NCBI GenBank assembly: GCA_902801625.1
Contig: CADCJI010000003.1
Span: forward strand, 1 to 64,000
From: an uncultured Bacteroidia bacterium
GTDB taxonomy: Bacteria > Bacteroidota > Bacteroidia > Bacteroidales > F082
DNA: 64,000 bases
Reading direction: 5' to 3'
Under the pieces are notes generated by a model. The model had not been told where the DNA came from, did not search any database, and saw only the letters and a program-made list of their open reading frames with translations. The translations under genes were made by a program, and so were the position numbers. Shown here one piece after another: positions 34,212 to 55,732 of this stretch. Each line of letters starts with the position of its first letter. The stretch's first letter is position 1.

Positions 34212-34219
34212 TACATTTG
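34212..34219 (+). promoter_or_regulatory. -7 box ahead of cobalamin riboswitch 1
   Basis: TACATTTG, matching TAnnTTTG, with the riboswitch beginning about 10 bp later. Confidence 0.6.
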
Positions 34220-34227
34220 CAGCCGAT

Positions 34228-34384
34228 TTGTGGTGTCCCCTACGGACTCAATAGGGAATCGGGTGAGAATCCCGTACAGTTCCCGCTGCTGTGTTGGTTA
34301 CAACGCTTGCCATGAACGTCACTGAAAGCCTTGTCTTTCGGGAAGGCGGCAAGAAAAGACCTCAGTCAGAAGACCTACCGAGGG
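34228..34384 (+). promoter_or_regulatory. cobalamin (B12) riboswitch 1
   Basis: Conserved elements in order: GGGAATCGGGTGAGAATCCC, CAGTTCCCGCTGCTGTG, GTCACTG, GGGAAGGCGGCAAG and the B12 box AGTCAGAAGACCTACC (34365-34380). The riboswitch binds adenosylcobalamin and normally lowers expression when B12 is plentiful. Here it precedes the start codon at 34469 by about 85 nt and so controls the giant Fn3/GEVED protein. Nothing else is seen in the gene-free stretch 34110-34211. Confidence 0.95.
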
Positions 34385-34468
34385 CGTTATCTTCATTTTA
34401 GGTATTCCAACGTTTTCCAGAAGTTTTTGGGTAATGAATTGAATGTCAAACCTATAAACTTTTGTATT

Positions 34469-37400
34469 ATGTATTCAAAATTCTTTACGCGATTGTTCCT
34501 AATGATAGGAATGATTGGATTGTTTTCGGCCTCTGTCTTAGCGCAAGGCGGAGGCGAAATCGTAGAAATTGGGACAGCCACCACAGGCACGACACTATCC
34601 CCAATCTACACACCTAAAAACTATTCTTTCACTCAGCAGCTTTACACCGCCGAGGAGATTGGCACGGATGGCACCATCACGAGCATTGCCTTCCATTGGG
34701 CATTCAATGGTTCCAAAACTTTTGGTATTGACGTGTATATGAAACACACGGAAAGAGCCTACTTTGAGACCTCTGCCGACCGTATCCCCCTTTCCGCTTC
34801 CGATAAAGTGTTTACCGGCACGATTAATCCAGACCAGGATAGTTGGATTACCATTACTCTTGATGAACCTTTTGAGTATGATGGTAGCAGCAATTTGGTC
34901 ATCGCCGTTCACAGGACCTCGGGATCGCCTGGATTTAATGACTTAGACAGCAATTGGAATGTGATTCCCACATGGTATTACACTAGCACGGATAGATATA
35001 CGATGTTGTATATGGGAGACGACCAAAGTCAGTACGTCAGTCTTAGTCCTGCATACATGGCCCCAAGCAACAATCGTCCCAACATCCAAATTGAAATCGG
35101 CTCTTCCACCACCACATGCAAGGCCCCGAAAAACCTGGCAGCAAGCGATATCACAACCAATTCAGCAACCTTGTCCTGGACCGCAGGCAGCGGTGACCAA
35201 ACCGATTGGGATGTTTATTACACCACAAGCAGTGTGGCTCCCGACGAGAATACAACCCCTTCCTTCCAAGTGACCGAATGCACCAAAGTTTTGACAGGTC
35301 TCACCGCACAAACCACCTATTATGCATACGTCCGTGCATCTTGCAGCAGCGCCGACAAAAGCAGATGGATCAGCACCAACTTTACCACCACACGTGAAGC
35401 GCTTCACGTAGGCTCAGGCAATCCATACCAAACCGATTTTGAAAGCACTTGCGACTGGGCGTTTACCAATGGCACTCTGACCAACCAATGGTGCTGGGGC
35501 AGTGCCACCAACAACGGTGGACAAAAAGCCATGTACATCTCAAATGACAATGGCACCAACAATGCCTATTCCGCAAACAGCGCCGCTGTGGTATTCGCTT
35601 CCAAACTCTTCTCTTTCGACCCTGGCACCTACACTTTCGTTTATGATTGGAAAGCCAATGGAGAAAGCACCTATGACTATCTCCGTGTAGCTTTGGTTCC
35701 CGGAGATATGGAATTCACGGCTGGCACCAGTCTTCCTTCTGGTGTTGGAACCACTACCCTACCGAACGGCTGGATTGCCTTGGATGGTGGAGGAAAACTG
35801 AATCTAACCAATAGCTGGCAAAACCAGACGTTGGAAGCCACCGTTTCCGGTACCTATACCATGGTCTTTCTTTGGCGCGACGATACCAGCGGTGGAAGCC
35901 AACCTCCCGCGGCTATCGACAACATCAGCATCAGCATGATGACTTGCTCGCGGCCGACTAGTTTGGTTGCGGATGCCACCACCCTCACATGGACTCCTGG
36001 CGACGAAGGGCAAGATGCATGGGAAATCAGCCTTGGCACAACCACTAACCCTGAAAACGGCACTATCATTCCTGTAACAGGAACCCCCTCCTATACTTTC
36101 ACCAACCTCGCACTTGAAACCCAATATTACGCCTTTGTCCGCTCCGACTGCGGCACAGACGGAAAGAGTTCTTGGAGCGAAGCAGCTTCCCTCTATCTCG
36201 GATACTGCCAACCCGCACCTACCAGTGTGGACAGAAAAGGCATCACCAATGTCACTTTCGGCACTGGAAATGAAATCGTCAACAACAGCAACTATCCCAC
36301 CAGCAGCCCCTATTACGGCAATTACTCCAATTTAGTGGGTGCCGTAGCCGCAAGCGAAACTGCCGTCATCAACATTACCTACGAAACAGGCTACACCTAC
36401 GGCACACTCATCTGGGTAGACTGGAACAACAACTACGAATTGGAAGACAGTGAAATCGTATATAGCGGAACTAGCACCAACAGCAACCCCACCACCTTGG
36501 AGGCTTCTTTCACCATTCCTGCCACCCAAGCCGAGGGATACTACAGGATGCGCATCGGAGGTGCCGACTCTTATTTTGACGGCTATATTGGCGGAAATGC
36601 AACCGCCAGCCACGACCCATGCTCAGCCGGGACATACAAGGTCTTCCACGACTACACGCTTCATGTGTTACCGCTACCAGCTTGCCCCACCCCGACTTCT
36701 TTTGTCGCCAGCAATGTAGCTGCTACCACCGTCACGCTTTCGTGGACTGAAAATGGCAGTGCATCCAACTGGGTGCTGCAATATGGCACCGACGCCGACT
36801 TTGCCAGCTATACTGAAATAACGAGCGGCTTCAATGCTAACGGTAACACCATCTCCATTGGCATCACAGGACTTTCGGGTGAAACACAATACTTCGCACG
36901 TGTGAAGTCGGTCAACGGCAGCGACGCAAGCGAATGGGCAACCTGCAATTTCACCACTTTGCCCACATGCGTGGCTCCTTCAGCCTTATCTGCCTCTAAA
37001 ACCGGTACCTCTATTACCCTCAGCTGGACGGCGGGCGAACAAGGCCAAGACGCTTGGGATATCCGTTACAAGAAAAGCACCGATGATGAATACTCTTATA
37101 TCCATCTCGAAAACCAAACCTCAACTAGCTACACAATTACTGGACTCAGTCCCGTCACCACCTATAAGGTGAATGTGCGTGCCTGGTGCGATGAAGAAGA
37201 CCAGAGCAAGTGGGGAGCAGGCACGAATCAGACCTACGACCTATCCGTCACCACGGACTGCGGAGCCATCGAACTTCCCTATACCTGTGATTTTGAAGGC
37301 ACCATGCAGACCGTCAACAGCTGCAAGATACCAAGTTGCTGGAGCGTAATCGAAGGCTATCAAAACAGCTCTTACAGCTATGGCATCCCCACTGTGGCCA

Positions 37401-39103
37401 ACCAAAGTTCAAGCACCCAACCCATCGCTTATCCTCACGGAGGCAGCTATTGTCTCTATTTCCTCAACAGCACCTACTCTGGAACTTCCGAAGAGTATGC
37501 CATTCTACCTGAAGTCAGTGAAAACTACAACATGAGAGACATCCAGATTAGATTCTGGGTGAAAAGCAACAACACTGATTGCCAAATGGAAGTCGGTGTG
37601 ATGACCGACCCCAACAGTGCCAGCACATACGTCAAAATTGAAGATGTCGACATAACAAGCACTTATGCGGAAAAAACCATCAGTTTGAACAGCTATTCAG
37701 GAAACGGTCGCTACATTGCACTTAAATGTCCTGCTGCCAATATGCATTCACAAGCTTTCTATGTCGACGACATCCTTGTTGAATACATTCCTTCTTGCCA
37801 AGTCCCTGAAAACCTTGAAGCAGTAGAGGTTGGTGTGAACGAAGCCACACTGACTTGGACACCTCGTGGTGATGAGACCGCTTGGAACATTCAATACAAG
37901 AAAGCCTCCGAAAGCGAATGGAGCGAGCCGATTGCTGTGGAAGGAACCACCTACACATTGACAGGACTACAACGCTCCACCGAATATGAAGCCTGTGTAC
38001 AGGCTAACTGCGATGATAACGACCAAAGTGACTGGACGTATCCTATCAGCTTCACCACCGAATGTGGCATTTGGGCTATTGACGACACTCACGCTTTGAT
38101 TGAGAACTTTAATGGCGAGACCTTCCCACCCGACTGTTGGCAAAAGGTCAATTTCGGCGAGATGGGCGTTACCAATGGCTGGCTTCAATCTTTCAACAAT
38201 CCCTTGGATAACAACGGTGCCGTTTCGAGCGATTTCAAACACGAAACATGGCTCTTCCTGCCACAAATGCACATCGATGGAGAAGCCTTCCTCTCTTTCG
38301 ACCATCTGTTTGGCAGCGGTAACGATTACATCCCAAGTTCGGTAATGATTACCACCGATACAGACATTGATTTGGAAGACATCAAGACGGAAGGCTTCGT
38401 TGCACAACACTTTACTAGCATTTGGACCGCCAATGCAAGCAATCTTCCTTCAACGAAGCGAAACGAACTTGTCTCTTTGAGCGGCTATGATGGAGAAGAC
38501 GTTTACATTGCTTTCAGGTATGAAGGCACTTACAATTATTCAGGAAAAATATGGTACATCGACAATGTTCAAGTATATGTTCCAGTTGAACAAACGGTTG
38601 AACTTGCTCAAGGCACAAACTGGTGGTCGGCCAACCTCAACATCACCCTTGACCAACTCAAGGATGCCATCGAAGCCGCATTGGGACCGAACGGCACCGC
38701 CACAATCAAGTCGCAGAATAGCTCAATCAGCTACAGCAACGGACAGTGGAGACCTACCGACATGGACTTCGACATTCGTGAAATGTACCAAATTCTGGTC
38801 AGCACCGGATGCGAGATCACATTGACAGGCATGCATGTCAATCCTGCCAATTATGAAATCACTCTCCTCTCTGGTGTTAACTGGATTGGATTCCTTCCGA
38901 GCGAGAGCATGTCGATTGGCGATTTCTTCTCGGGACTCACTCCTGAGGTGGGCGATGTCGTCAAGTCATCGGATGGCTCTTCCTCCTTCAACGGTGAAGG
39001 CTGGAGAGGGTCATTAGAGACCCTGGAGCCTGGGCATGGTTACATCTACTATTCCAAGGCAACAGATAGTAAGACTATCACCTTCCCCACAACCGCAAAA
39101 TAA
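34469..39103 (+). CDS. giant Fn3/GEVED surface protein under B12 riboswitch
   Basis: 1544 residues from the ATG at 34469; the frame is open from a TTG inside the riboswitch, which is not used. Signal peptide 1-25 (ending SVLAQ). Then an N-terminal beta domain (26-210), Fn3 repeats near 216-302, 492-575, 738-830, 834-925 and 1110-1195, a choice-of-anchor-J-like domain at about 318-490 and again at 940-1108 and 1212-1375, and a GEVED domain at about 577-735 (GTLIWVDWNNNYELEDSEIV). The C-terminal 165 residues (AQGTNWWSANLNITLDQLKD ... KTITFPTTAK) form a separate domain; no PNP-type T9SS tail is seen. Regulation by B12 suggests a part in capture of corrinoids or of B12-bearing matter; the family itself does not show this. 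Confidence 0.85.
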   Translation: MYSKFFTRLFLMIGMIGLFSASVLAQGGGEIVEIGTATTGTTLSPIYTPKNYSFTQQLYTAEEIGTDGTITSIAFHWAFNGSKTFGIDVYMKHTERAYFETSADRIPLSASDKVFTGTINPDQDSWITITLDEPFEYDGSSNLVIAVHRTSGSPGFNDLDSNWNVIPTWYYTSTDRYTMLYMGDDQSQYVSLSPAYMAPSNNRPNIQIEIGSSTTTCKAPKNLAASDITTNSATLSWTAGSGDQTDWDVYYTTSSVAPDENTTPSFQVTECTKVLTGLTAQTTYYAYVRASCSSADKSRWISTNFTTTREALHVGSGNPYQTDFESTCDWAFTNGTLTNQWCWGSATNNGGQKAMYISNDNGTNNAYSANSAAVVFASKLFSFDPGTYTFVYDWKANGESTYDYLRVALVPGDMEFTAGTSLPSGVGTTTLPNGWIALDGGGKLNLTNSWQNQTLEATVSGTYTMVFLWRDDTSGGSQPPAAIDNISISMMTCSRPTSLVADATTLTWTPGDEGQDAWEISLGTTTNPENGTIIPVTGTPSYTFTNLALETQYYAFVRSDCGTDGKSSWSEAASLYLGYCQPAPTSVDRKGITNVTFGTGNEIVNNSNYPTSSPYYGNYSNLVGAVAASETAVINITYETGYTYGTLIWVDWNNNYELEDSEIVYSGTSTNSNPTTLEASFTIPATQAEGYYRMRIGGADSYFDGYIGGNATASHDPCSAGTYKVFHDYTLHVLPLPACPTPTSFVASNVAATTVTLSWTENGSASNWVLQYGTDADFASYTEITSGFNANGNTISIGITGLSGETQYFARVKSVNGSDASEWATCNFTTLPTCVAPSALSASKTGTSITLSWTAGEQGQDAWDIRYKKSTDDEYSYIHLENQTSTSYTITGLSPVTTYKVNVRAWCDEEDQSKWGAGTNQTYDLSVTTDCGAIELPYTCDFEGTMQTVNSCKIPSCWSVIEGYQNSSYSYGIPTVANQSSSTQPIAYPHGGSYCLYFLNSTYSGTSEEYAILPEVSENYNMRDIQIRFWVKSNNTDCQMEVGVMTDPNSASTYVKIEDVDITSTYAEKTISLNSYSGNGRYIALKCPAANMHSQAFYVDDILVEYIPSCQVPENLEAVEVGVNEATLTWTPRGDETAWNIQYKKASESEWSEPIAVEGTTYTLTGLQRSTEYEACVQANCDDNDQSDWTYPISFTTECGIWAIDDTHALIENFNGETFPPDCWQKVNFGEMGVTNGWLQSFNNPLDNNGAVSSDFKHETWLFLPQMHIDGEAFLSFDHLFGSGNDYIPSSVMITTDTDIDLEDIKTEGFVAQHFTSIWTANASNLPSTKRNELVSLSGYDGEDVYIAFRYEGTYNYSGKIWYIDNVQVYVPVEQTVELAQGTNWWSANLNITLDQLKDAIEAALGPNGTATIKSQNSSISYSNGQWRPTDMDFDIREMYQILVSTGCEITLTGMHVNPANYEITLLSGVNWIGFLPSESMSIGDFFSGLTPEVGDVVKSSDGSSSFNGEGWRGSLETLEPGHGYIYYSKATDSKTITFPTTAK

Positions 39104-39150: not shown

Positions 39151-39186
39151 GGTCGGTGGCAGGCTCCACTGCCACCGACCTTTTAA
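39151..39186 (+). terminator. terminator after giant Fn3 gene
   Basis: GGTCGGTGGCAG and CTGCCACCGACC pair perfectly (12 bp) and are followed by TTTTAAA. Confidence 0.85.
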
Positions 39187-39215: not shown

Positions 39216-40532
39216 ATGAAGAAACAGTATCAAGCAGTCACGGCCGAAGAAGCCGTCAAAGTCATCAAGTCGGGCGACCACGTCCACATCAGTTCGGTAT
39301 CGAACGTTCCTCAATGCCTGGTGAAAGCCTTGTGTGATAGAGGTCGCGCCGGCGAGCTCAAGAATGTTTATATCCATCACCTGCACACCGAGGGTGCCGC
39401 GCCCTACGTCAACCCCGAGTTTGAGGGTATCTTCCAACACAACGCCTTCTTCGTGGGTGCCAATGTGCGCGAAAGCGTCCAAAAAGGATTGGCCGATTAC
39501 ATCCCCGTTTTCCTCGGTGAAACCTCGAAACTCTATCGTGAACGCTACATCAAGTGCAACGTGGCGATGATCCAGGTGTGTCCGCCCGACAAGTTCGGCT
39601 ATGTGTCGCTAGGCTCGTCGGTCGATGCCACTTTGGCCGCCATGGAGAGCGCCGAGTTTGTCATCGCTGTGGTCAACAAGCACGTGCCGCGCACTTTTGG
39701 TGATGCATTGGTCCACATCAGCAGAATCAACATCTTTGTCGAAGACGACACCCCTTTACTCACTGTAGATATGCCCGAACCCAATGAAGTGGAGAAAACC
39801 ATCGGACGCTACTGCGCCGAACTCATTGAAGACGGTGCTTGCCTCCAGATGGGTATCGGTTCTATACCGAACGCCATTCTTTCGTGCCTCCACAACCACA
39901 AGGACATCGGCATCCACACCGAGATGTTCTCCGACGGTATCCTTCCCCTAGTGAAGGAAGGGGTTATCACCGGAAACAACAAAAGGCTCAACAGGGGCAA
40001 GATTGTCTCCACCTTCGTGATGGGTTCGCAGAAAATCTACAATTTCATCGACGGCAACCACGAGGTGCTGCTGATGGACGTAGAATACACCAACGACCCT
40101 TTCATCATCGCACAGCAACCCAAGATGACATCCATCAACTCGGGCATCCAGATCGACCTCTCGGGACAGGTATGTGCCGACTCTTTGGGCGAACGCATCT
40201 ATTCCGGTGTAGGCGGACAGATTGACTATGTCTATGGCGCGTCGCGTTCCAAAGGCGGCAAGGCCATCATTGCCATGCCTTCCACCACACGCAAGGGCAT
40301 CAACAAAATCGTGCCCACCTTGGATTTAGGCTCTGGCGCTGTCACCACGCGCAACCACATTCACTGGTTCGTCACCGAATACGGCGCTGTGAACCTTTAC
40401 GGACGCTCTTTGCAAGAGAGGGCCAAACTTATCATTTCCGTGGCGCATCCGCAGTTCCAGGAGATGCTTGACGAGGCCGCTTTCAAGCGTTTCGGGCCGC
40501 ATTTCCATTATTTGTGGAATAGTATCGTATAA
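39216..40532 (+). CDS. acetyl-CoA hydrolase/transferase-family CoA-transferase
   Basis: 438 residues, the length of the 4-hydroxybutyrate or butyryl-CoA:acetate CoA-transferase group. Recognisable stretches are PDKFGYVSLGSSVDATLAAM, MGIGSIPNAIL, the catalytic Glu in GIHTEMFSDG (Glu236), GVGGQIDYVYGASRSKGGKA and EYGAVNLYGRSLQERAKLII. The enzyme moves CoA between an acyl-CoA and a free acid, in gut anaerobes as part of fermentation to acetate, butyrate or propionate. Which acid is used cannot be told from motifs. It starts 30 bp after a strong terminator, with a palindromic repeat after its stop; no pathway partner is adjacent. Confidence 0.92.
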   Translation: MKKQYQAVTAEEAVKVIKSGDHVHISSVSNVPQCLVKALCDRGRAGELKNVYIHHLHTEGAAPYVNPEFEGIFQHNAFFVGANVRESVQKGLADYIPVFLGETSKLYRERYIKCNVAMIQVCPPDKFGYVSLGSSVDATLAAMESAEFVIAVVNKHVPRTFGDALVHISRINIFVEDDTPLLTVDMPEPNEVEKTIGRYCAELIEDGACLQMGIGSIPNAILSCLHNHKDIGIHTEMFSDGILPLVKEGVITGNNKRLNRGKIVSTFVMGSQKIYNFIDGNHEVLLMDVEYTNDPFIIAQQPKMTSINSGIQIDLSGQVCADSLGERIYSGVGGQIDYVYGASRSKGGKAIIAMPSTTRKGINKIVPTLDLGSGAVTTRNHIHWFVTEYGAVNLYGRSLQERAKLIISVAHPQFQEMLDEAAFKRFGPHFHYLWNSIV

Positions 40533-41388: not shown

Positions 41389-43986
41389 TTATTGAACAAT
41401 CACTTTCTGCGTCAAACACTTGGCATCACACTTCACTGAAATGAAATAGACTCCCTTGACAACGCCACTCAAATCAAGTGTCATTACAGGGCTTAGGCAT
41501 TTACCGTTTATAACCGTTCTTCCTGCGAGGTCAAGCACCTGATACTCAAAGGCAGAATCCTCGCCAATGGTGATAGTGACCACTCCTTGAGTTGGGTTGG
41601 GATATACGGACAGATCTCCAACCGTTTCCTGCTCACCAACGGCATAGATTTCATTATACTCATCGGCACCTGCGCAAGGCGTATTGGGACGCACTTCTCC
41701 GTCGATGTCAGTGGCTGCATACTCCAAAGGATTTGCCACGATGAGACCTTCGGGGCTGGTCAAGTGGTAATCACCGTTGCCTGCAAAATGAGGTGAGCAA
41801 GTGGCACTTTGGGCATCAAAACCCGAAGTGGAAGTCCATTCAGCCAATGTCGCACAATCCGTACCAGCAAAAATGCCAACATAACCGCCCGTGAACGAAA
41901 CGCGATTGTAGTCGCAATACCGAGCCTCGCTCTCATTATTGAAGCGGAACACATAACCGTCCGTCTCGTTGACAAAGAGATTGTTATAAACATAGAGATT
42001 CGACCATTCCTTTTGCACCATCAGATTGCCCGATGCTCCCGTGCCGCTGCATAAGCCTGTGTTGTGGATGAAATAGATATAATCGCTGTCGGCATTATCA
42101 AAAGAATAGCACCAGCTTGAGGCTGCGCCTTGAAAATCGACAATGTTGTTGCGGACAATCACTGGCTCTGCTGCTGTGCCCGTGCAGGGACGGAGTTTCA
42201 CCACGGTAGCATACTTGGTGGGATGGTTCACGGTCATCACATTGTTTTCGACAAGGCAACCATAACGGCAACGGAACATATCGATGGCATTGAAGTCGGT
42301 GTGCGTGTCGTTGTTGTTGTCAATCGTATTTCCGCTGAGGGTCACATGGTCGGTGAAGGTGGTATAGATAGCCTTGCTGCACTGGTTGGTGAACGAGCAG
42401 CTCTGCACCAAGAGTCCGTCGTTGAATTGGGTCATGTCGGTGCCCTGGTAATAGAGACCTATAAAGCCATTGACAAACTCACAGCCGACAAAAGCATTAT
42501 CGGTATCCATCCAGCCGCCGGAGACACGATAAACCAGGTTCTTGTCGTTGTCGGTATTGGAAGCCTCAGAATAGCAGCCTTCAAAGCGTACCTTCTCAAA
42601 ACGGTCGTTTGAAAGTCCACCACGCAAAGTCACCACAACGGCATTTTCTTCCGAAGTGGATGACAAGGTCATGTTTTCGAAGGTCACATAATCGGCACCA
42701 TCGAGTGTGAGAGTGCTGTTTTGGGTATAACCTGCATTGCTGGTCAACACGACTTGTTGGTTGTCGGCTCCCGTGCCACGGAAGATAACGCGGTTGGAGG
42801 CGCTTGCCCCGGAGATGGCATTAAGCGTAACATATTCCTCGTATGTGCCTGAGGCAACTTCAAAAATCACTTCACCTGCAATACCCACTGACAAGGCTGA
42901 TACTGCCGCACCAAATGAAGTGAAATCAGGGTTTTGCGAAGCATCGGAATTGATAGTATAGACGCCACTGAGTTGTGATACGATGGCATTAATGACCACA
43001 TGCACGGTGAAGTCGACCGACTGGCCATCGCTGGTGGCACGCATCGTGAGGTTGGCGGTGGCTTGGTTGGCGTTTTGACGTGTCATGACCAAGATCTTGC
43101 CGCTCATCGTAGCTGTCAAAGCAGAGGGATTCGAGTTGTTGACAATGCTGTAAACGATGTTCTCATCCGGATCGTCGGGGTCGGTAGCCACACCATTGAG
43201 GTTGACTTGGAGAGTTTGCGGATAGTTGTTGAAAACTACATCCTGCACGGGATTGACAATATAAGGCGGCAGGTCGGGAGCAGCGCCACCACCATTGAAG
43301 TTGTCCATGCAGAAATAGGCAGGTGTAATCATGTTGTAGCCACTGCCTCTTGATGATGAAAGGCTAAAGGAAATGGTGGCCACATTACCCAAGGGGCTGA
43401 GATCGAACCACTCCCATGTATTAAGGACATAGTCTTCCTCATTGTTGGTAAAACGAAAGTCGGCGAGGTAGAAATCCAATGTACCCACAGTTTGACCACT
43501 GGCATTCTTACCTGTCGCTGTCACCTTAAACCAGTCAGGGTCGTTGCCTGTAGTTCCTCCGTAGGGCAGCTCGCCATACCCGCCTTGAAGAATGTCCTGA
43601 TAAGTCCACAGATTGTTGGTGACATAGCAGCCTGTGACGGTATGCAATTGCCCATCGGTGGCATAGACATCCGTCTGCACGCCCATGGTATATGCCACGG
43701 CATATTGGGTAGAGCCATCATAGCCACAGCCTGCAGCCGCAGTATACTGGGCATTAAGACCCGTTTGGCTCAGATCCGTACGATTAGAGGCCGTGAAGCC
43801 GCCCCAATAGCCGTATTGGGTAGAATTGGTAAAGAGCCAGCCGCCGCTGGGCATCTCATTTTCGCCAACAGGGGGTTGCCAGATACCACCACTACCAAGT
43901 GGCACATCTTCGAAAGTGGCAGGTTCTTGCGCCATGGCAAAGGCAGCCATGACAAGCACAAGGGATAATAGTAAACTTTTACGCAT
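41389..43986 (-). CDS. DUF4465-like / beta-helix T9SS surface protein under B12 riboswitch
   Basis: 865 residues from the ATG at 43984-43986 (MRKSLLLSLVLVMAAFAMAQ, signal peptide); the upstream open frame is riboswitch. Residues 25-245 match the DUF4465 pattern (TFEDVPLGSGGIWQPP, SGGWLFTNSTQYGYWGGFTA, WFKVTATGKN, VDFYLADFR-like TLDFYLADFRFTNNE, WEWFDLSPLG). A cadherin-like strand domain follows (255-350), then a right-handed beta-helix (about 365-760) and a T9SS sorting tail (LSVYPNPTQGVVTITIG ... LTQKVIVQ). As I recall, B12-binding BtuH proteins of Bacteroides belong to DUF4465, and the riboswitch upstream agrees with that. So a secreted or surface corrinoid-binding protein is likely. Confidence 0.85.
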   Translation of the reverse strand: MRKSLLLSLVLVMAAFAMAQEPATFEDVPLGSGGIWQPPVGENEMPSGGWLFTNSTQYGYWGGFTASNRTDLSQTGLNAQYTAAAGCGYDGSTQYAVAYTMGVQTDVYATDGQLHTVTGCYVTNNLWTYQDILQGGYGELPYGGTTGNDPDWFKVTATGKNASGQTVGTLDFYLADFRFTNNEEDYVLNTWEWFDLSPLGNVATISFSLSSSRGSGYNMITPAYFCMDNFNGGGAAPDLPPYIVNPVQDVVFNNYPQTLQVNLNGVATDPDDPDENIVYSIVNNSNPSALTATMSGKILVMTRQNANQATANLTMRATSDGQSVDFTVHVVINAIVSQLSGVYTINSDASQNPDFTSFGAAVSALSVGIAGEVIFEVASGTYEEYVTLNAISGASASNRVIFRGTGADNQQVVLTSNAGYTQNSTLTLDGADYVTFENMTLSSTSEENAVVVTLRGGLSNDRFEKVRFEGCYSEASNTDNDKNLVYRVSGGWMDTDNAFVGCEFVNGFIGLYYQGTDMTQFNDGLLVQSCSFTNQCSKAIYTTFTDHVTLSGNTIDNNNDTHTDFNAIDMFRCRYGCLVENNVMTVNHPTKYATVVKLRPCTGTAAEPVIVRNNIVDFQGAASSWCYSFDNADSDYIYFIHNTGLCSGTGASGNLMVQKEWSNLYVYNNLFVNETDGYVFRFNNESEARYCDYNRVSFTGGYVGIFAGTDCATLAEWTSTSGFDAQSATCSPHFAGNGDYHLTSPEGLIVANPLEYAATDIDGEVRPNTPCAGADEYNEIYAVGEQETVGDLSVYPNPTQGVVTITIGEDSAFEYQVLDLAGRTVINGKCLSPVMTLDLSGVVKGVYFISVKCDAKCLTQKVIVQ

Positions 43987-44094
43987 AAAAATGGTTATTA
44001 CGCATGAAACAAATACTGCAAGACCATCGCAAGAAGCCATGCTAATTGCCGCGCTTAGCGTTGCCCTTGTTCCCGAAGGCTTGCAATTGAACTC

Positions 44095-44312
44095 ACGGTT
44101 TGGCAGGTCTTCTGACTTGTCCGAGCCCTTAAAGGGCGACCCGCGCATTGTGCGAGCGGTTTTAACCCTCGCATAAAAAAGCAGGTCCCTTGCAGGGGTG
44201 AGCCTGTCGCCTTCCCATACGGATGAGCCGTACAGTGGCTGGGTTGACAGACCTTACGCGGGCTTACAGCAGCGGGCACTGTTGCCGACTTTCACGGCAT
44301 TCCCTTGGCCAA
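44095..44312 (-). promoter_or_regulatory. cobalamin (B12) riboswitch 2
   Basis: On the minus strand: GGGAATGCCGTGAAAGTCGG, ACAGTGCCCGCTGCTGTAA, GCCACTGTACGG, GGGAAGGCGACAGG and the B12 box AGTCAGAAGACCTGCC (44102-44117). A long variable arm (about 44120-44200) sits between. It ends about 110 nt before the start codon of the DUF4465-like gene, which it must control. Confidence 0.96.
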
Positions 44313-44320
44313 ACTGGGTG

Positions 44321-44328
44321 CAAAGGTA
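44321..44328 (-). promoter_or_regulatory. -7 box ahead of cobalamin riboswitch 2
   Basis: TACCTTTG on the minus strand, directly before the riboswitch; same distance as in riboswitch 1. Confidence 0.6.
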
Positions 44329-47895: not shown

Positions 47896-49068
47896 ATGAA
47901 GCATTTATTCAAATCCGCAGCCATAGTCGCTGCATCCCTCCTGCTCGCAGTGAACTTCAGCTCCTGCAACAAAGATCCTCAAGACAACACCGAGGAAGTC
48001 AACAAAGCCACAAAAGAGGCCATCGTGAAACAGTACCTCAACCACACGGTGTATCCCACCTATGCCAGCTTGGCTGAAAAGACAGACGCTTTGGTGGAGA
48101 ACCTCGAAGCCTTGAAGGCCAACAAGACACAAGCCAATGTAAACACCGCCACCGTCACCTTCCTCGAAGCCCGCAAGTGGTGGGAAATGAGCGAGGCCTT
48201 CCTCTTTGGCGCCGCCTCCGACTTCGGCATCGACCCGCACATCGACTCGTGGCCGCTCGACGAAGACGCCTTCAATAACCTGATGGCCAGCCCCAACATG
48301 ATTGCCGCCCTCGCCACCGATGAAGATGGCATGGTAGCCGGTGAGCAACTCGGCAATGCCCTGCTCGGCTTCCACGGCATCGAGTTCATCCTTTTCCGTG
48401 AGGGTCAGCCCCGCAATGTGAACGAAATCACCGACGACATGATGACCTACATCGTTGCCGTTTCGCGCGACCTGCGCAACCGCTGCTTCCAACTCGAAGT
48501 GAGCTGGAACGCCGATGCACCGCAAGCCCACAAAGACCTGATGGAAGAACTGGAGTTCAACACCACCGTCAACGGAGGCGACAACACCTACGGCGAGAAC
48601 ATGCTCCAAGCCAGTCAGGCGGGTAGCACCTTCGCCACCTTCACCAACGCCCTCGAAGCCATCGCCGACGGATGCATCGACATCGCCGACGAGGTGGGTA
48701 CCTCCAAGATCGGCAAATGCCACACAGGTGAAGACGTAACCTACGTGGAGTCACCCTACAGTCAAAAGTCCATCACCGACTTTTACGACAACATCACCAG
48801 CATCAAAAACGCCTACATGGGCGGCATGGAAAGCCAACGCGATGAAGCCCTCTCGCTGCATGCCTACATCCAGGACAACAACAAGGAGCTCGACACCAAG
48901 GCCATGAATGCCATCGAAAACGCCATGACGAAGATCCAAGCCATGAAGGCTCCTTTCGTGCAGTTCTATGCCGATGCCAGCGCTGGCGAGGCCATGGAGG
49001 CCTGCCAAGACCTCTCCGATGTGATGGCCGAGGTAAAGGCCGAGTTTGGAAAGATCGACAGAAAATAA
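47896..49068 (+). CDS. imelysin-family (M75) lipoprotein
   Basis: 390 residues, a lipoprotein (LLLAVNFSSC). Mostly helical; the conserved GxHxxE motif is GFHGIEF (His160, Glu163), within a repeated four-helix layout. Imelysin-like proteins such as IrpA and EfeO-type EfeM lack proven peptidase activity and act in iron uptake at the envelope. Its partners, a porin upstream and a di-haem DUF1111 protein downstream, form a trio known from iron-regulated loci. Residues ARKWWEMSEAFLFGAASDFG are typical of the family. Confidence 0.9.
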   Translation: MKHLFKSAAIVAASLLLAVNFSSCNKDPQDNTEEVNKATKEAIVKQYLNHTVYPTYASLAEKTDALVENLEALKANKTQANVNTATVTFLEARKWWEMSEAFLFGAASDFGIDPHIDSWPLDEDAFNNLMASPNMIAALATDEDGMVAGEQLGNALLGFHGIEFILFREGQPRNVNEITDDMMTYIVAVSRDLRNRCFQLEVSWNADAPQAHKDLMEELEFNTTVNGGDNTYGENMLQASQAGSTFATFTNALEAIADGCIDIADEVGTSKIGKCHTGEDVTYVESPYSQKSITDFYDNITSIKNAYMGGMESQRDEALSLHAYIQDNNKELDTKAMNAIENAMTKIQAMKAPFVQFYADASAGEAMEACQDLSDVMAEVKAEFGKIDRK

Positions 49069-49111
49069 TAACGACACACATGAGACCAAGAAACACACAA
49101 TCGAGCCTATA

Positions 49112-49203
49112 GCCCTCATGGCGGACAAGGATCCGCCATCTCCTGAACGCGAAGACGACACCCTTCCGTTCAGGAGATTGCGGGTCAAACCCGCAATGAG
49201 GGC
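49112..49203 (+). repeat. 92-bp three-armed palindromic repeat, copy 2
   Basis: Outer stem GCCCTCAT/ATGAGGGC, arms GGCGGA-CAAGGA-TCCGCC, ATCTCCTGAACG/CGTTCAGGAGAT and TGCGGGT-CAA-ACCCGCA. Same length and order as the reverse complement of 16636-16727. It lies in the gap between imelysin and DUF1111 genes. Confidence 0.9.
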
Positions 49204-49272
49204 AAAGGGCGTTTGGGTAGTGATTCCCGGTCTCAAATCATAACAATATGAAACCCACAAAACCCAAATATC

Positions 49273-50868
49273 ATGATAAATTACAAACATCTAAGCATCT
49301 TTGCCCTTGCCAGCCTTATGGCTTTGGCCGCCTGTAATCCCAAGGAACCCATCCCCGAGGTCATCAGTGAAGAGACCTACGCCGGCGGCGAACTGGGCAC
49401 CACCTTCAACACTTCCCAATCCGCCTATGAAGACCCCACCCCTGCCGTCGAACAGGCTGGTTTGACCACTGCGTTCAAATATGGCGAGTACTTCTTTGAG
49501 CGCACCTACACGCAAAACAATGAGCCTTTCAACGGCCTCGGTCCCCTTTACATCCGCAGCAGCTGCATCGCCTGCCATCCTGGCTATGGTCACGGCATGC
49601 GCATGAACCGTTATCGCGCCGATGACTGGGGCAATGGTTACCTGCTCGTCTTTACTGACAAGAACGATACCTACCTGAGTTCCTACACCGGCATGCCTCA
49701 AACCAAGGCCGTCGCGCCCTTCAAGGCTCCCTTGGACGAGACCCAGATCCAAATCAACTGGCTGAGCTACACCGACGAGTGGGGCAACCAGTTCCCCGAT
49801 GGCGAGACCTATAACCTCACCTATCCTGAGGTCTACATTCCCGAAGAGGCCTTCTATGTGCCGCTCGAAGTAGGTGGTCAGCCCATCCCCTACAGCGACT
49901 TCGTCTGCCGTCTCGAATCGACCATCGGCATCTATGGCACTGGCTTGATCGATGCCATCCCCGACGATTCTTTGAGAGCGCAATACCAAAAGGAATACAA
50001 TGACGGCTATATGCCGAACGGCCTCAATCCCGCCATGTGGGCCGGCTCCGACTTCGCCCCGACGGGCTATTATGGTAACACCACCCATCCCAAGAAGTAC
50101 ACATACGCCCTCACGCGTGGTCCCTTGCAGGATGCCCCTGGCGCCAATGCCATCTGGAATATCACCAATGTGACGCACCACACTAAGATGGGTCACTATA
50201 TGACCGCTGCATACGCCACCAAGGCTTCTCAAGACCCCGATGTGCAGGCTGAGTTCTACAACTACTTCCCACAGTACAACCTCACAGGCAATGTGGAGAC
50301 CGACATCTACAACTACCTGATGATGAACGACCAAATCCCTGAATCCCTGAAAGTTCCCGAGATGAAGGACGAGGACTATGTCAACTTCATGGTTTGGCAC
50401 CGTGGCTTGGCCGTGCCTGCCGCCCGTAACATGGACGACCCCGAAGTGCAACGCGGCAAAGAACTCTTCAACAACATGGGTTGTGCCTACTGCCACCGTC
50501 CGTCGTGGAAGACCGGAGATGACATGTTCACCGACCCGAGCGGCTTCTTTGCCGACGGCGACGCCCGTCTGCCCCGCTATCCCAACCAAAAGATTTGGCC
50601 TTATAGCGACTACATCCAACACAAGCTCCACATGGAGAACGACATCCGCACAGGTTGGTGCCGCACCACTCCGCTCTGGGGTCGTGGTTTGAGTGCCAGA
50701 TGCACCGGACGCAGCGACCGTTTGCACGACTGCCGCGCCCAAACCGTCATCGAGGCCATCATGTGGCATGGCAACGCCCAAAGCGACGCCCGTCGCACGG
50801 TGGAGAAATTCCGCGAACTGCCGAAGAAAGACCGCGATGCTGTCGTGAAATTCATAGATGCAATTTGA
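49273..50868 (+). CDS. di-haem oxidoreductase-like lipoprotein (DUF1111)
   Basis: 531 residues, a lipoprotein (LASLMALAAC). Two haem c attachment sites are visible: SSCIACH (Cys98, Cys101, His102) and MGCAYCH (Cys404, Cys407, His408). The C-terminal run TGWCRTTPLWGRGLSARCTG and LHDCRAQTVIEAIMWHGNAQ is the signature of the family, here with Cys in place of the more common Arg/Gly positions (W-R-T-P-P; HDGRA), giving three extra Cys in a short stretch. The family is a CxxCH relative of di-haem peroxidases, often next to imelysin and thought to serve iron reduction or release. Cytochrome maturation would need CcsBA, encoded 5 kb further on. Confidence 0.88.
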   Translation: MINYKHLSIFALASLMALAACNPKEPIPEVISEETYAGGELGTTFNTSQSAYEDPTPAVEQAGLTTAFKYGEYFFERTYTQNNEPFNGLGPLYIRSSCIACHPGYGHGMRMNRYRADDWGNGYLLVFTDKNDTYLSSYTGMPQTKAVAPFKAPLDETQIQINWLSYTDEWGNQFPDGETYNLTYPEVYIPEEAFYVPLEVGGQPIPYSDFVCRLESTIGIYGTGLIDAIPDDSLRAQYQKEYNDGYMPNGLNPAMWAGSDFAPTGYYGNTTHPKKYTYALTRGPLQDAPGANAIWNITNVTHHTKMGHYMTAAYATKASQDPDVQAEFYNYFPQYNLTGNVETDIYNYLMMNDQIPESLKVPEMKDEDYVNFMVWHRGLAVPAARNMDDPEVQRGKELFNNMGCAYCHRPSWKTGDDMFTDPSGFFADGDARLPRYPNQKIWPYSDYIQHKLHMENDIRTGWCRTTPLWGRGLSARCTGRSDRLHDCRAQTVIEAIMWHGNAQSDARRTVEKFRELPKKDRDAVVKFIDAI

Positions 50869-51169: not shown

Positions 51170-54100
51170 ATGAAAAGAAAGAATTTACTTTTCTTGCTGC
51201 TATTGGTATTGTTCATGCCTTGGGCAGCAAATGCACAAGAATCAATCCCTTACACCGAGGGATTTGAGAACATGAGCTCCGCCGACGACCTTGCTGCCGC
51301 TGGTTGGATTTCGTACCAAACGCACAGTGGAAGTTTCTTAGCTATTGAAACAACAGCCTCGAATGTTCACAGTGGTTCCCAGGCTCTTAAGATTGACAGC
51401 TGGAACGCTGGTAGTACTTCTGATTTTGTAGTCGTTGGACTTCCTCTGGTTGATGCAGCTATCAACACACTGCAAATCACCTTCTCTTACAAAGTTTCAA
51501 CGGGTAACGTTTATGTCGGTTATCTGACCGATGCCAACGATGCCAGCACTTTTGTGCCTTTGGAATCGTATATAGCTTCATCAAGCTACACAACTGTTAC
51601 CAAGGAACTGAACGAAGCTCCGGCCACAGCTGCCCGTATTGCTATCAAGTATCTGAATTGGTACAGATGCTATGTTGATGACATTGAGGTGAAAGCCCTG
51701 CCCACCTGTGTCAAACCAACGTTGGGCAACGCGCAATTTATCTCAGAAGAAGGAGCTTCCTTCCAATGGACCGAAAACGGAAGCGCCACCGATTGGGTGC
51801 TCGAATACAGCACTGATCAAAACTTCACAAATGCCACTTCGGTAAGCCGTAGCGGTATTTCCAGTTATGCCATTACAGGCCTCACCGCTGGAACCACTTA
51901 CTACGTCCGTGTGAAGTCTGACTGCGGCGGCGGTGACACAAGCGACTGGAGTAACACGGTTAGCTTCACCACACTCTGCGAGCCAATCAACGCCGAGGGC
52001 TACAGCGAGAACTTTGACGAGTATGAGGTGGCTTCAAACTACACCGCTCCTTCAGCTCGTGTACTGCCTGACTGCTGGAGTGCCATCAACACAACCTCTT
52101 ACAGCAGCTATTCGGTTTTCCCGACCATTTATTACTACAGCAGCACCAACTATGCCAACTCAACGCCTAACAGCTTGAAATTATATTCATACTATTCAAG
52201 CTACTCCAATTACGACCCGCAACCGCAATACGCCATCCTGCCTCCTATGAATAGCTTGGCCGGTATGCAAGTGACGCTGAAGGCCCGTGGCTACAACACC
52301 AGCAGCACCTTCAAGATTGGAACGATGAGCGACCCGAGCGACGCCAGCACCTTCACGATGATTACGGAGCAAACCGGGCTGACCACCTCCTATCAGGAAT
52401 TCGAATACGTGATTCCCGTCAACTGCCACGACAACTTCCTCGCCATCATGATTGATGCCGCCTCTTCGAGCAGAACATACAACGGTGCCTATATCGATGA
52501 CATCGTCATCACTGAGGCTCCTGCCTGCACAAAGCCCATGGGTCTGGAAGTTGTGAGTGCCTCCACCACGTCGGCCACCCTTAGCTGGACCGCTAGTGGC
52601 AACGAAACCGCTTGGCAGATTTGCCTTGACGGCGACGAAACCAACCTCATCGACGCCAACAGCAACCCCTTCACCATTGAAGGCCTCACCGCTGCCACAA
52701 GCTACACCGCCAAGGTTCGTGCCAACTGCGGCGATGAAGACTATAGCGACTGGAGCAACACGGTGACCATCGAAACCTTGTGCGATGTCATCACCATCAC
52801 CGAATCGTGGAGCGAAAACTTCAACAGCCTCACTGCGGGTATTCCCAACTGCTGGGATAACAGCGAAGGCACCACAACAGATGCCTCATACAAGTGGAGC
52901 TACTATACCACTGGCCATGATGGCGCTGGTTTGCGTTTCAACTCCTATAGCAACAGCACTGGCAACACCAACTTCCTGAAGACCCCCACCCTCAGCTTGC
53001 CTGCCGACCAGGTGATGCAGCTGACCTTCTGGTACAAGAACCCCACGGGCGGCGACTTCTCAGTCTATATCTCCACCGATGGTGGTGCGACCTACACAAC
53101 AGCCTTGGCCACTGGCCTTACCGGTGTGTCGTCATGGACCGAACATCCTGTCATCTATCTTGCTGATTATGCTGGCCAAGAAGTGGTCATCGTCTTCAAA
53201 GGTACCTCAAACTATGGTAGTGGCGATGCCTACATCTACTTGGATGACGTCACCGTTATGGAGGCACCTACTTGCCTTAAACCTACCGACGTGGAAGTGA
53301 CTACCAATGCTTTGACTGCTACCATCACTTGGGTGAGCGAAGCTGGCGAATACGATGTGGCTTATTCCACTGATAATACTGCCAACCCCGATGAAAACAT
53401 CGCTGGCACGGCTACTGAAGAGACCTACACGATGAGCGACCTCGCCCTTGGCGACCATTACTTCTGGGTGCGCGCCAACTGCGGTAGCGACGGCTACAGC
53501 GAATGGGTTGGTCCCGTCAGCGTGCATATCGGATATTGTGTGCCTACTCCCAGCAATGTGGACGGCAACGGCATCTCCAACGTGACCTTCGGCATGGGCG
53601 ACAACATTGTCAACAACGACACGCCTAAAGCCACTTACGCTGACTATTCAAGCCAAATCGGTGCTGTGCAAGCTGGTGTGGAATCCACCATTGCCATCAC
53701 CTACGCTACAGGCTACACCTACGGCACTATCATTTGGGTTGACCTCGACAACAGCCTGAGTTTCGAAGACAGCGAAATCGTTTATACTGGTACTAGCGGA
53801 GATGTCAACCCCACCACGCTGAACGCCGCCATCACCATTCCTGCCACACAAACTCCTGGCGATTATATGATGCGTATCGGTGGTGCCGACAGTGGCTTTG
53901 ATAGCTACATCAGCAATCCTTCCACCACAGCTCCTTCCGCTTGCTACAATGGCAACTGGGCTTGCTTCCAAGACTACACCCTGCGTGTGCTTGAGGCTCC
54001 TTCCTGCCTGCTGCCTACCAATGTGGCCATCAACTACACTGGCGGCACCGAAGCCACCATTAGCTGGACCAGCGATGCCGAAGCTTGGAACATGCGCGTG

Positions 54101-55732
54101 AACGGCGTTGATGTCAACGGCATCATCACCAATCCTTACCTGTTGACCGGACTTGAACTGGCCACCACCTACAGCGTGGAAGTGCAGGCCAACTGTGGCG
54201 AAGATGGCACCAGTGAATGGAGCAATGCTGTCAGCTTCACCACTGACCTCTGCATGCCTGAAAACCAATGCGAAATCAGCTACAGCTTCTATGACCAATA
54301 CGATGACAGCTGGAACGGCGCTTATATGAATATTGTGGATGCCGCAACACAAGAAGTGCTTTACGAACTGACTATGCCTGAGGTCGATGGACCTTACGAA
54401 GGCTCTTTCAATGTCTGCGACGGTCGCGACATCCAATTCGTTTGGGTGAGCGGAAGCTATCCTAGAGAATGTGGCTACGAATTCACTCACAATGGCGAGA
54501 CCATCCTTGAAAAGGCTACAAATACAGCAGCTCCCGACGCAGGTATTGTCCTCACCTACACCGTGAATTGCTCTGCTGCCCAGACCTTACCCAAGGAAAT
54601 CACTGGCTACGGTGAAGACGATGGCAACTACTACCTCATCGCTTTGCCCTTCGACGGTGGCGAAGAGGGTGTCAATCCCGAATCCATTGAGGGCATGCTT
54701 ACCGATGAATACGACCTCTACTATTTCGATGAGGCAGGCGACAATGAAGGTAATGAATGGATGAACTACAAAGTTGCTCCTTTCAACCTCGTTTCTGGCA
54801 AGGGCTACCTCTATGCCAGCAAGAATCCAACCACGATTACCTTCACCGGTAATCCTATCGAAGGCACCGAGTACAATGTCACATTGAAAAAGACAGATGG
54901 CGCTGATTGGTCGGGCTGGAACCTCGTGGGCAACCCCTTCAACGTAACTGCTTACATCGACCGCGGCTTCTATACCTTAGATAGTGATGGAAAAGAGGTC
55001 GTTATCTCTAGCAGCACCAGCATTGAACACATGGAAGGCATTTTCGTCGAAGCTAATTCCGATGGGGAGCAGATGACCTTCACCACCAACGCACCTCTCC
55101 AAGGCAAGAAACAAATCGTTCTCAACCTTACCCAAGGCCGTGGCAACACCATCGACCGTGCCATCGTCCGTTTCGGCCAAAGCCAAATGATGCCCAAGTT
55201 TATGTTGAACGAGAACCACACCAAGATGTACATCCCCAAAGACAACAAGGACTTCGCTATGGTGTCTGGAAGCAATAATGGCAGACTTCCCGTCAACTTC
55301 GAACCTGCCGAAGACGGCACTTACTTCATCAACGTCGACATCGAGAATGTGAGGGTGAAATACCTGCACCTCATCGACCGCGAGACGGGTATGGATGTTG
55401 ACCTGCTCCAGAACCCGACTTACAAGTTCGAAGCCAAGAAGGCTGAAAAGCCCAACCGCTTCGAACTGTTGTTCAAGACGGGTTCCAGCCAATTCAAGGA
55501 GGTGTTCTCCAGCTTTAGTGGAGACAACTTCAGCTTCTGCAACAATGGCAACTGGATCATCAACAACGATGGCGACGCCATCCTCCAAGTGATTGACGTC
55601 AATGGCCAAATCCTGAGCAGCGAAAGAATCAGTGGTAGTGTCAGCAAGCACATCGATGCCACTCCTGGTGTCTACATGCTCCGCCTCGTCAACGGCGAGA
55701 ACGTGAAGGTCCAGAAGATCGTTGTTGAATAA
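51170..55732 (+). CDS. giant Fn3/GEVED surface protein with T9SS sorting domain
   Basis: 1520 residues with a signal peptide (1-23, WAANAQ). Domains alternate: a choice-of-anchor-J-like domain (about 26-180), Fn3 (CVKPTLGNAQFISEEGASFQ), anchor-J-like (PDCWSAINTTSYSSY), Fn3 (LEVVSASTTSATLSWTASGN), anchor-J-like (GIPNCWDNSEG), Fn3, a GEVED domain (TIIWVDLDNSLSFEDSEIVY), Fn3, a short DQYDDSWNGAYMNI domain and a wide beta region, then a T9SS tail (ILQVIDVNGQILSSERISGS ... VQKIVVE). It is a paralogue of the B12-controlled giant at 34469-39103 but has no riboswitch. A surface adhesin or binding protein is likely; ligand unknown. Confidence 0.88.
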   Translation: MKRKNLLFLLLLVLFMPWAANAQESIPYTEGFENMSSADDLAAAGWISYQTHSGSFLAIETTASNVHSGSQALKIDSWNAGSTSDFVVVGLPLVDAAINTLQITFSYKVSTGNVYVGYLTDANDASTFVPLESYIASSSYTTVTKELNEAPATAARIAIKYLNWYRCYVDDIEVKALPTCVKPTLGNAQFISEEGASFQWTENGSATDWVLEYSTDQNFTNATSVSRSGISSYAITGLTAGTTYYVRVKSDCGGGDTSDWSNTVSFTTLCEPINAEGYSENFDEYEVASNYTAPSARVLPDCWSAINTTSYSSYSVFPTIYYYSSTNYANSTPNSLKLYSYYSSYSNYDPQPQYAILPPMNSLAGMQVTLKARGYNTSSTFKIGTMSDPSDASTFTMITEQTGLTTSYQEFEYVIPVNCHDNFLAIMIDAASSSRTYNGAYIDDIVITEAPACTKPMGLEVVSASTTSATLSWTASGNETAWQICLDGDETNLIDANSNPFTIEGLTAATSYTAKVRANCGDEDYSDWSNTVTIETLCDVITITESWSENFNSLTAGIPNCWDNSEGTTTDASYKWSYYTTGHDGAGLRFNSYSNSTGNTNFLKTPTLSLPADQVMQLTFWYKNPTGGDFSVYISTDGGATYTTALATGLTGVSSWTEHPVIYLADYAGQEVVIVFKGTSNYGSGDAYIYLDDVTVMEAPTCLKPTDVEVTTNALTATITWVSEAGEYDVAYSTDNTANPDENIAGTATEETYTMSDLALGDHYFWVRANCGSDGYSEWVGPVSVHIGYCVPTPSNVDGNGISNVTFGMGDNIVNNDTPKATYADYSSQIGAVQAGVESTIAITYATGYTYGTIIWVDLDNSLSFEDSEIVYTGTSGDVNPTTLNAAITIPATQTPGDYMMRIGGADSGFDSYISNPSTTAPSACYNGNWACFQDYTLRVLEAPSCLLPTNVAINYTGGTEATISWTSDAEAWNMRVNGVDVNGIITNPYLLTGLELATTYSVEVQANCGEDGTSEWSNAVSFTTDLCMPENQCEISYSFYDQYDDSWNGAYMNIVDAATQEVLYELTMPEVDGPYEGSFNVCDGRDIQFVWVSGSYPRECGYEFTHNGETILEKATNTAAPDAGIVLTYTVNCSAAQTLPKEITGYGEDDGNYYLIALPFDGGEEGVNPESIEGMLTDEYDLYYFDEAGDNEGNEWMNYKVAPFNLVSGKGYLYASKNPTTITFTGNPIEGTEYNVTLKKTDGADWSGWNLVGNPFNVTAYIDRGFYTLDSDGKEVVISSSTSIEHMEGIFVEANSDGEQMTFTTNAPLQGKKQIVLNLTQGRGNTIDRAIVRFGQSQMMPKFMLNENHTKMYIPKDNKDFAMVSGSNNGRLPVNFEPAEDGTYFINVDIENVRVKYLHLIDRETGMDVDLLQNPTYKFEAKKAEKPNRFELLFKTGSSQFKEVFSSFSGDNFSFCNNGNWIINNDGDAILQVIDVNGQILSSERISGSVSKHIDATPGVYMLRLVNGENVKVQKIVVE

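Follow-up and report, generated by a model that had tools for sequence, protein, structure and literature searches.

Cobalamin riboswitches resembling btu leaders precede a predicted surface adhesin family in a ruminant-gut Bacteroidales genus and are damaged in one genome

The window analyzed here, the 64,000-nucleotide (nt) stretch at positions 1 to 64,000 of contig CADCJI010000003.1 (assembly GCA_902801625.1), comes from an uncultured Bacteroidales bacterium of the F082 lineage and encodes P0001, a 1544-residue secreted protein preceded by a cobalamin (vitamin B12) riboswitch. We consider it fairly probable that, within one ruminant-gut Bacteroidales genus, the adhesin family to which P0001 belongs acquired a leader resembling that of the btu (B12 uptake) operon and with it B12 control, and that the switch in the window itself is damaged. 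An earlier note, made from this sequence alone, proposed that a complete riboswitch controls P0001; the proposal stands at the level of the family, where the aptamer has been kept upstream, but control in the window's own genome is probably broken. Feature coordinates are listed in Table 1.

The leader of P0001 matches the Rfam Cobalamin family RF00174 with 87.5 bits, well over the gathering score of 31.5 (E 3.1e-20), and the aptamer core and B12 box are intact, so the riboswitch that the earlier note recognized is present. The aptamer starts with TACATTTG, which we take to be a Bacteroidota-type -7 box (consensus TAnnTTTG), and this motif can be seen by eye in all 22 leaders that reach that far, the window included (the L070 leader is cut off). 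Over the whole window, the Rfam scan at gathering threshold finds two cobalamin riboswitches, and none before the paralogue at 51170–55732, in agreement with the note.

We searched for P0001 in 99 genomes of the genus and fetched 35 loci that look orthologous by hit strength and coverage together with five paralogue controls, with L045–L079 being picked after the riboswitch places were known. Aptamers were detected both with a B12-box pattern and with a hidden Markov model trained on 22 of these leaders plus that of the window, and the two methods agree in placing an aptamer at 33 of the 35 loci. The L050 sequence stops partway through the gene, leaving 34 testable loci, and in 32 of these the aptamer lies directly upstream of the start; at L071 it stands before an intervening coenzyme A (CoA)-transferase gene, and at L059 there is no aptamer within 805 nt upstream. 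None of the five paralogue controls has an aptamer, each with at least 1.6 kb of upstream sequence. Orthologues thus do carry the element, the point on which the earlier note had made its proposal depend. L059 (1–806) has a short leader, and the stretch before its gene resembles, by eye, the region 5' of the aptamer in its relatives.

A fairer test is given by a second set of 78 titled loci picked by sequence only, although it draws on largely the same genomes and the two sets are not independent. Its close group contains 33 loci with at least 39% identity to the core, three of which run off their contigs; of the 30 testable loci, 28 have an aptamer directly upstream (counting L096, a split gene whose first part has the aptamer before it), one has it before a CoA-transferase gene, and one has none. 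No aptamer is found at any of the 45 more distant loci, 35 of which have at least 400 nt upstream; two loci counted as distant, L159 (43%, E 2e-12) and L161 (40%, E 5e-12), have identities that come from a short best segment. Judged from these sequence comparisons, the link between aptamer and adhesin is real at the family level. P0002 was considered as an orthologue that had lost its switch and was rejected, being no closer than a distant paralogue, with 48% over about 277 residues. Several close relatives are labelled with ruminant sources (e.g. Roe_deer_Rumen and Sheep_Reticulum), and one locus of the genus (L054, genome G047) lies in LPNG01000022.1, a record of bacterium F082, which is currently called Candidatus Alcium sp. 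F082 and belongs to the Bacteroidales.

Among the classes compared, the adhesin leader most resembles the btu leader found in its own genome. Alignment of the regions following the B12 box gives scores of 18–41 between adhesin and btu leaders in all ten genomes entered (ten of the 13 in the regulon census below; G116 contributes btu only), and at most 14 between adhesin leaders and the other classes found by pattern, which missed the nrdD, dehydratase, and all but one of the CoA-transferase leaders. Scores between btu and P0003-type leaders are 0–6 in nine genomes. Adhesin and btu leaders also have in common a hairpin close to the start codon, and their signal peptides are alike by eye. The simplest account would be that a btu leader, with its aptamer, 5' hairpin, and start region, was copied onto the adhesin gene and brought the family under B12 control within this one genus, the copying presumably having run in that direction.

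Relative to the five relatives measured, the window leader is missing 67–68 nt directly after the B12 box, and an alignment of 23 leaders (the window and 22 orthologous) shows that the 3' strand of P1, P13 together with its loop L13, and the 5' half of the hairpin after it have gone; the riboswitch elements are therefore not complete, contrary to the earlier note. The P1 closing helix is incomplete, with several mismatches marked there in the Rfam alignment; its 3' strand is present in orthologues, with some mismatches. The P13/L13 hairpin docks on L5 in a kissing interaction, and its loop motif is present in all 33 orthologous aptamer leaders and missing from the window copy. A count of riboswitch flanks over all fetched loci gave 74 boxes, four of which were set aside as chance matches, and among the 70 distinct flanks a hairpin with a CGGGA loop is present in 64 and missing from six. 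A hairpin with another loop is possible by eye in four of the six (the dehydratase-type L192, L194, and L197, and the nrdD leader L193), and the two flanks with no hairpin are those of the window copy and of a sub-threshold remnant in G132. With a narrower flank pattern (GCC or the window's own letters after the box, CCCGC upstream) 63 of 64 flanks have the P13 hairpin and the window is the sole exception, but such a pattern would miss other odd copies. The broader count leaves our assessment unchanged, since every one of the 33 orthologous leaders is still unlike the window copy. The G132 remnant (L172, G132:C43:26071–26255; 24.6 bits, below the Rfam cut-off, and lacking P13) looks like a second decaying switch in the genus.

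In relatives with an intact leader, plentiful B12 would shut the gene off through P13/L13 and the hairpin that follows, by termination or at translation. The following hairpin is foldable in most relatives, the L046 leader having been extracted too short for this comparison. RNAalifold predicts both hairpins for 28 leaders; in two of 11 pairs both partners have changed, and the covariation term is -0.29, which is modest covariation support for the two. Weighing against this reading, L051 and L076 lack the hairpin after P13 and a simple terminator scan does not flag it; because of the latter we only infer termination. In the window's genome the deletion of about 68 nt took out the responding parts, and P0001 is for this reason probably expressed regardless of B12. 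Control appears to have been lost in two lineages, through this deletion in the window and with the whole aptamer at L059. The earlier note had suggested that control was gained or lost selectively; the resemblance to btu leaders supports a gain, and these two cases support loss.

There are other ways to interpret the leader. The truncated copy may still regulate, with the aptamer core plus the start-codon hairpin as one conceivable route, as it retains these and the B12 box; we judge this unlikely, since the 3' strand of P1 and P13 have gone, unlike in all 33 orthologous aptamer leaders, and the folding z-score is only -1.05 for the window leader (258 nt) versus -4.98 for an intact one (340 nt). 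A deletion that is an assembly or binning error, the real leader being intact, would fit a draft genome (62 contigs, completeness 84.04) in a genus where many orthologous contigs end near the adhesin gene, but the repeat at the junction is only 3 nt and probably too short to mislead a k-mer assembler, which makes an error quite unlikely. The riboswitch might also be a hitchhiker, with the copied leader serving only as donor of a promoter and signal peptide and its B12 response having no selected role. The 5' untranslated region and signal peptides like those of btu, one clean loss (L059), and the damaged window copy all agree with this; nonetheless, aptamer and P13 are retained in nearly all orthologues, which argues for selection on the switch and leaves the hitchhiker a very unlikely explanation.

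P0001 has fn3 (131.7 bits, cut-off 25) and GEVED matches in Pfam and two choice-of-anchor-J stretches in NCBIfam (NF038128, 63.2 bits, cut-off 30), much as the earlier note described it. Its predicted folds match cleaved adhesins and point to adhesion, and we regard P0001 as a putative member of a long surface adhesin family whose building blocks are Fn3 modules and cleaved-adhesin modules of the gingipain type. Searches of Pfam and NCBIfam give no match in P0001 to Por_Secre_tail or another C-terminal sorting domain of the type IX secretion system (T9SS); a T9SS-like tail, by our own pattern, ends 13 of the 35 orthologous open reading frames (ORFs), several of which are cut by contig ends, and SprA is encoded in the window's genome. 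In the fetched loci the C-terminal module, P0001_C, ends no more than five residues from the stop in 19 of the 21 stop-bearing ORFs that hold it. ORFs ending in this module lack the T9SS tail, and it is possibly an unrecognized sorting or docking domain. A secreted-looking second gene lies closely 3' of adhesin genes ending in P0001_C at L047, L052, L055, L057, L058, L059, L064, and L067, and several of these second genes carry a T9SS tail and are possible partners. The notion that P0001_C and the downstream T9SS gene are one broken frame was rejected, as the downstream ORFs checked begin with a signal peptide of their own wherever the start can be made out (it cannot in L057 and L058).

In relatives, a shortage of B12 would lead to production of the adhesin alongside the uptake proteins, the B12 binders of the DUF4465 family, and enzymes that work without B12, and its most likely use would be to attach the cell to a surface or to a partner that is important when B12 is scarce. 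The earlier note had envisaged a new kind of corrinoid-related surface factor, which P0001 may yet be. One rival proposal is that P0001 itself captures corrinoids at the cell surface as a functional equivalent of BtuG, BtuH, or BtuJ, with the corrin held by jelly-roll modules. The riboswitch class is common to the adhesin and the btu operon in all 13 genomes examined, and the DUF4465 B12 binders are described as likewise (augmented) jelly rolls (PMC13398666). Against this, P0001 has no match to DUF4465 or another known corrinoid-binding family (Pfam to E 0.1, NCBIfam to E 0.01), the best 60 of 98 matches in a profile search of the core against solved structures are mainly Fn3 chains, and the predicted folds are those of cleaved adhesins. 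No DUF4465 structure is among the fold matches listed for P0001, which excludes nothing, and coverage of residues 1–188 of the first model was thin. A receptor role seems doubtful. A bolder version of the preferred reading, adhesion under B12 control, is a vitamin-starvation adhesin, a gingipain-type fiber under a captured btu leader that either tethers the cell to corrinoid-producing neighbors or particles or carries corrinoids on new jelly-roll sites, with control broken in some lineages, including the window, where it would always be made; this we offer only as a tentative possibility.

The composition of the regulon was determined in 13 near-complete genomes chosen for holding an orthologue, in which 51 riboswitches exceed the cut-off and the first gene after each was chosen by script. 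The adhesin family and the btu operon each account for 13, P0003-like genes for 11, CoA-transferase for five, and a TonB-dependent receptor, nrdD, and a protein of 486–489 residues for three each. The one TonB-dependent receptor tested is like B12 receptors and falls below the curated cut-off. The window's own draft genome has four cobalamin riboswitches, before P0001, P0003, a btu-type operon, and nrdD, the last encoding anaerobic ribonucleotide reductase (L006:10427–12811). The btu-type operon encodes two T9SS proteins, a DUF5074 propeller, and a periplasmic binding protein; its first gene (L005:4472–5722) encodes a 416-residue protein with a repeated stretch, a T9SS tail, and no Pfam domain beyond the tail, and relatives of this protein stand first behind such a riboswitch in all 13 genomes.

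The earlier note had also stated that no B12 gene follows the riboswitch. This is true of the next gene, but the second riboswitch in the window precedes P0003, whose DUF4465 match (161.5 bits, cut-off 25) puts it in a B12-binding family; B12 binding is reported for eight distantly related DUF4465 members (PMC13398666). The N-terminal domain of P0003 matches the solved DUF4465 structures 9qpm (2.6e-24), 9fct (3e-24), and 9hmu (3.3e-17). Some riboswitch-linked P0003 relatives (L198, L199) appear to begin directly at the beta-helix part. An ORF-like stretch (43986–44040, MASCDGLA..FVSCVI) after the second riboswitch continues in frame into P0003 and is seen again in L204, L205, and L206; it could be a leader peptide or an RNA element.

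Downstream of P0001, P0005 matches 4-hydroxybutyrate CoA-transferase structures (2oas, 2.4e-129). An operon of P0001 and P0005 was rejected for the window on account of a strong terminator-like stem between them, and the CoA-transferase gene of relatives can carry its own cobalamin riboswitch (L062, L065, L067, L072, L198). The one 486–489-residue protein tested (L192) matches 4-hydroxybutyryl-CoA dehydratase (1u8v, E 4.3e-254), and a CoA-transferase gene follows it. The riboswitch-linked CoA-transferase and dehydratase-like genes (L192, L194, L197) suggest a B12-independent bypass from succinate to butyrate: the methylmalonyl mutase family is present, and when B12 is low and the methylmalonyl route stalls, succinate could pass via 4-hydroxybutyrate. 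A search of the window's own genome gave no dehydratase, although in a draft genome the empty result shows nothing. Elsewhere in the window (47896–50868), an Imelysin (M75) gene adjoins a di-haem oxidoreductase gene in an iron-related looking pair.

Table 1. Features of the window; positions are those of the 64,000-nt stretch.
Feature	Position	Strand	Basis
-7 box TACATTTG, start of aptamer	34212..34219	+	read in sequence
Cobalamin riboswitch aptamer, 3' side truncated	34214..34395	+	RF00174 match and leader alignment
B12 box AGTCAGAAGACCT	34364..34376	+	read in sequence
Deletion junction, 3-nt microhomology CCT	34376..34377	+	alignment with relatives' leaders
Hairpin immediately 5' of start codon, also in relatives' leaders, btu-operon leaders included	34418..34464	+	folding
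P0001, secreted, 1544 residues, Fn3/choice-of-anchor-J (cleaved-adhesin fold)/GEVED	34469..39103	+	ORF, domain and fold matches
Conserved family core, residues 821–1371: Fn3, cleaved-adhesin fold, Fn3, cleaved-adhesin fold	36929..38581	+	family comparison and folds
C-terminal module P0001_C, residues 1372–1544	38582..39100	+	domain searches
Stem of 12 bp then TTTT, between P0001 and CoA-transferase gene	39151..39184	+	intrinsic terminator by eye, no tool score
P0005, 4-hydroxybutyrate CoA-transferase-like	39216..40532	+	domain and structure matches
P0003: DUF4465 (BtuJ-type), beta-helix, T9SS tail	41389..43986	-	Pfam, structure matches
Second cobalamin riboswitch, P13 hairpin present	44085..44328	-	RF00174, 72.5 bits

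If the proposed control is correct, the B12 regulon takes in large surface adhesins as well as uptake and bypass enzymes, and B12 scarcity would bear on where and with whom the cell lives. Switches that are intact, damaged, or lost occur naturally in front of this one gene family, and its genomes also contain the likely donor leader, so that one can trace how a riboswitch is captured and how it decays. Among the titles listed in full-text searches of an open-licence library, with long lists covered in part, none reports an adhesin or Fn3 protein as the target of a cobalamin riboswitch.

In PMC12751083 and PMC8941943, what B12 riboswitches are described as controlling in Bacteroides are uptake operons repressed by B12, and reporters for the cobalamin riboswitches of Bacteroides thetaiotaomicron btu operons are among those described as B12-repressed (PMC12751083). 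The adhesin leader belongs to the same RF00174 family, has the B12 box, and resembles the btu leader of its own genus, whereas its target is a giant Fn3/cleaved-adhesin protein and the window copy lacks the 3' strand of P1 and P13. BtuJ and its DUF4465 relatives (PDB 9fct, 9hmu) are similar in being jelly-roll surface proteins of a B12 regulon, with sequence membership for the neighboring P0003; P0001, in contrast, has no DUF4465 match, is about six times the length of the 256-residue 9fct chain, and has a signal peptide without a cysteine as read. The cleaved-adhesin (K) domains of Lys-gingipain from Porphyromonas gingivalis (PDB 4itc, 3km5, 3m1h) are the counterpart of the P0001 modules, which differ in alternating with Fn3, in the lack of a protease domain match in Pfam, and in standing behind a cobalamin riboswitch. 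In Tannerella, a cobalamin riboswitch is noted before 4-hydroxybutyryl-CoA dehydratase (PMC7160235), and the same kind of enzyme and riboswitch family occur together in three of the 13 genomes here (one tested), a parallel that concerns other genes of the regulon and not the adhesin.
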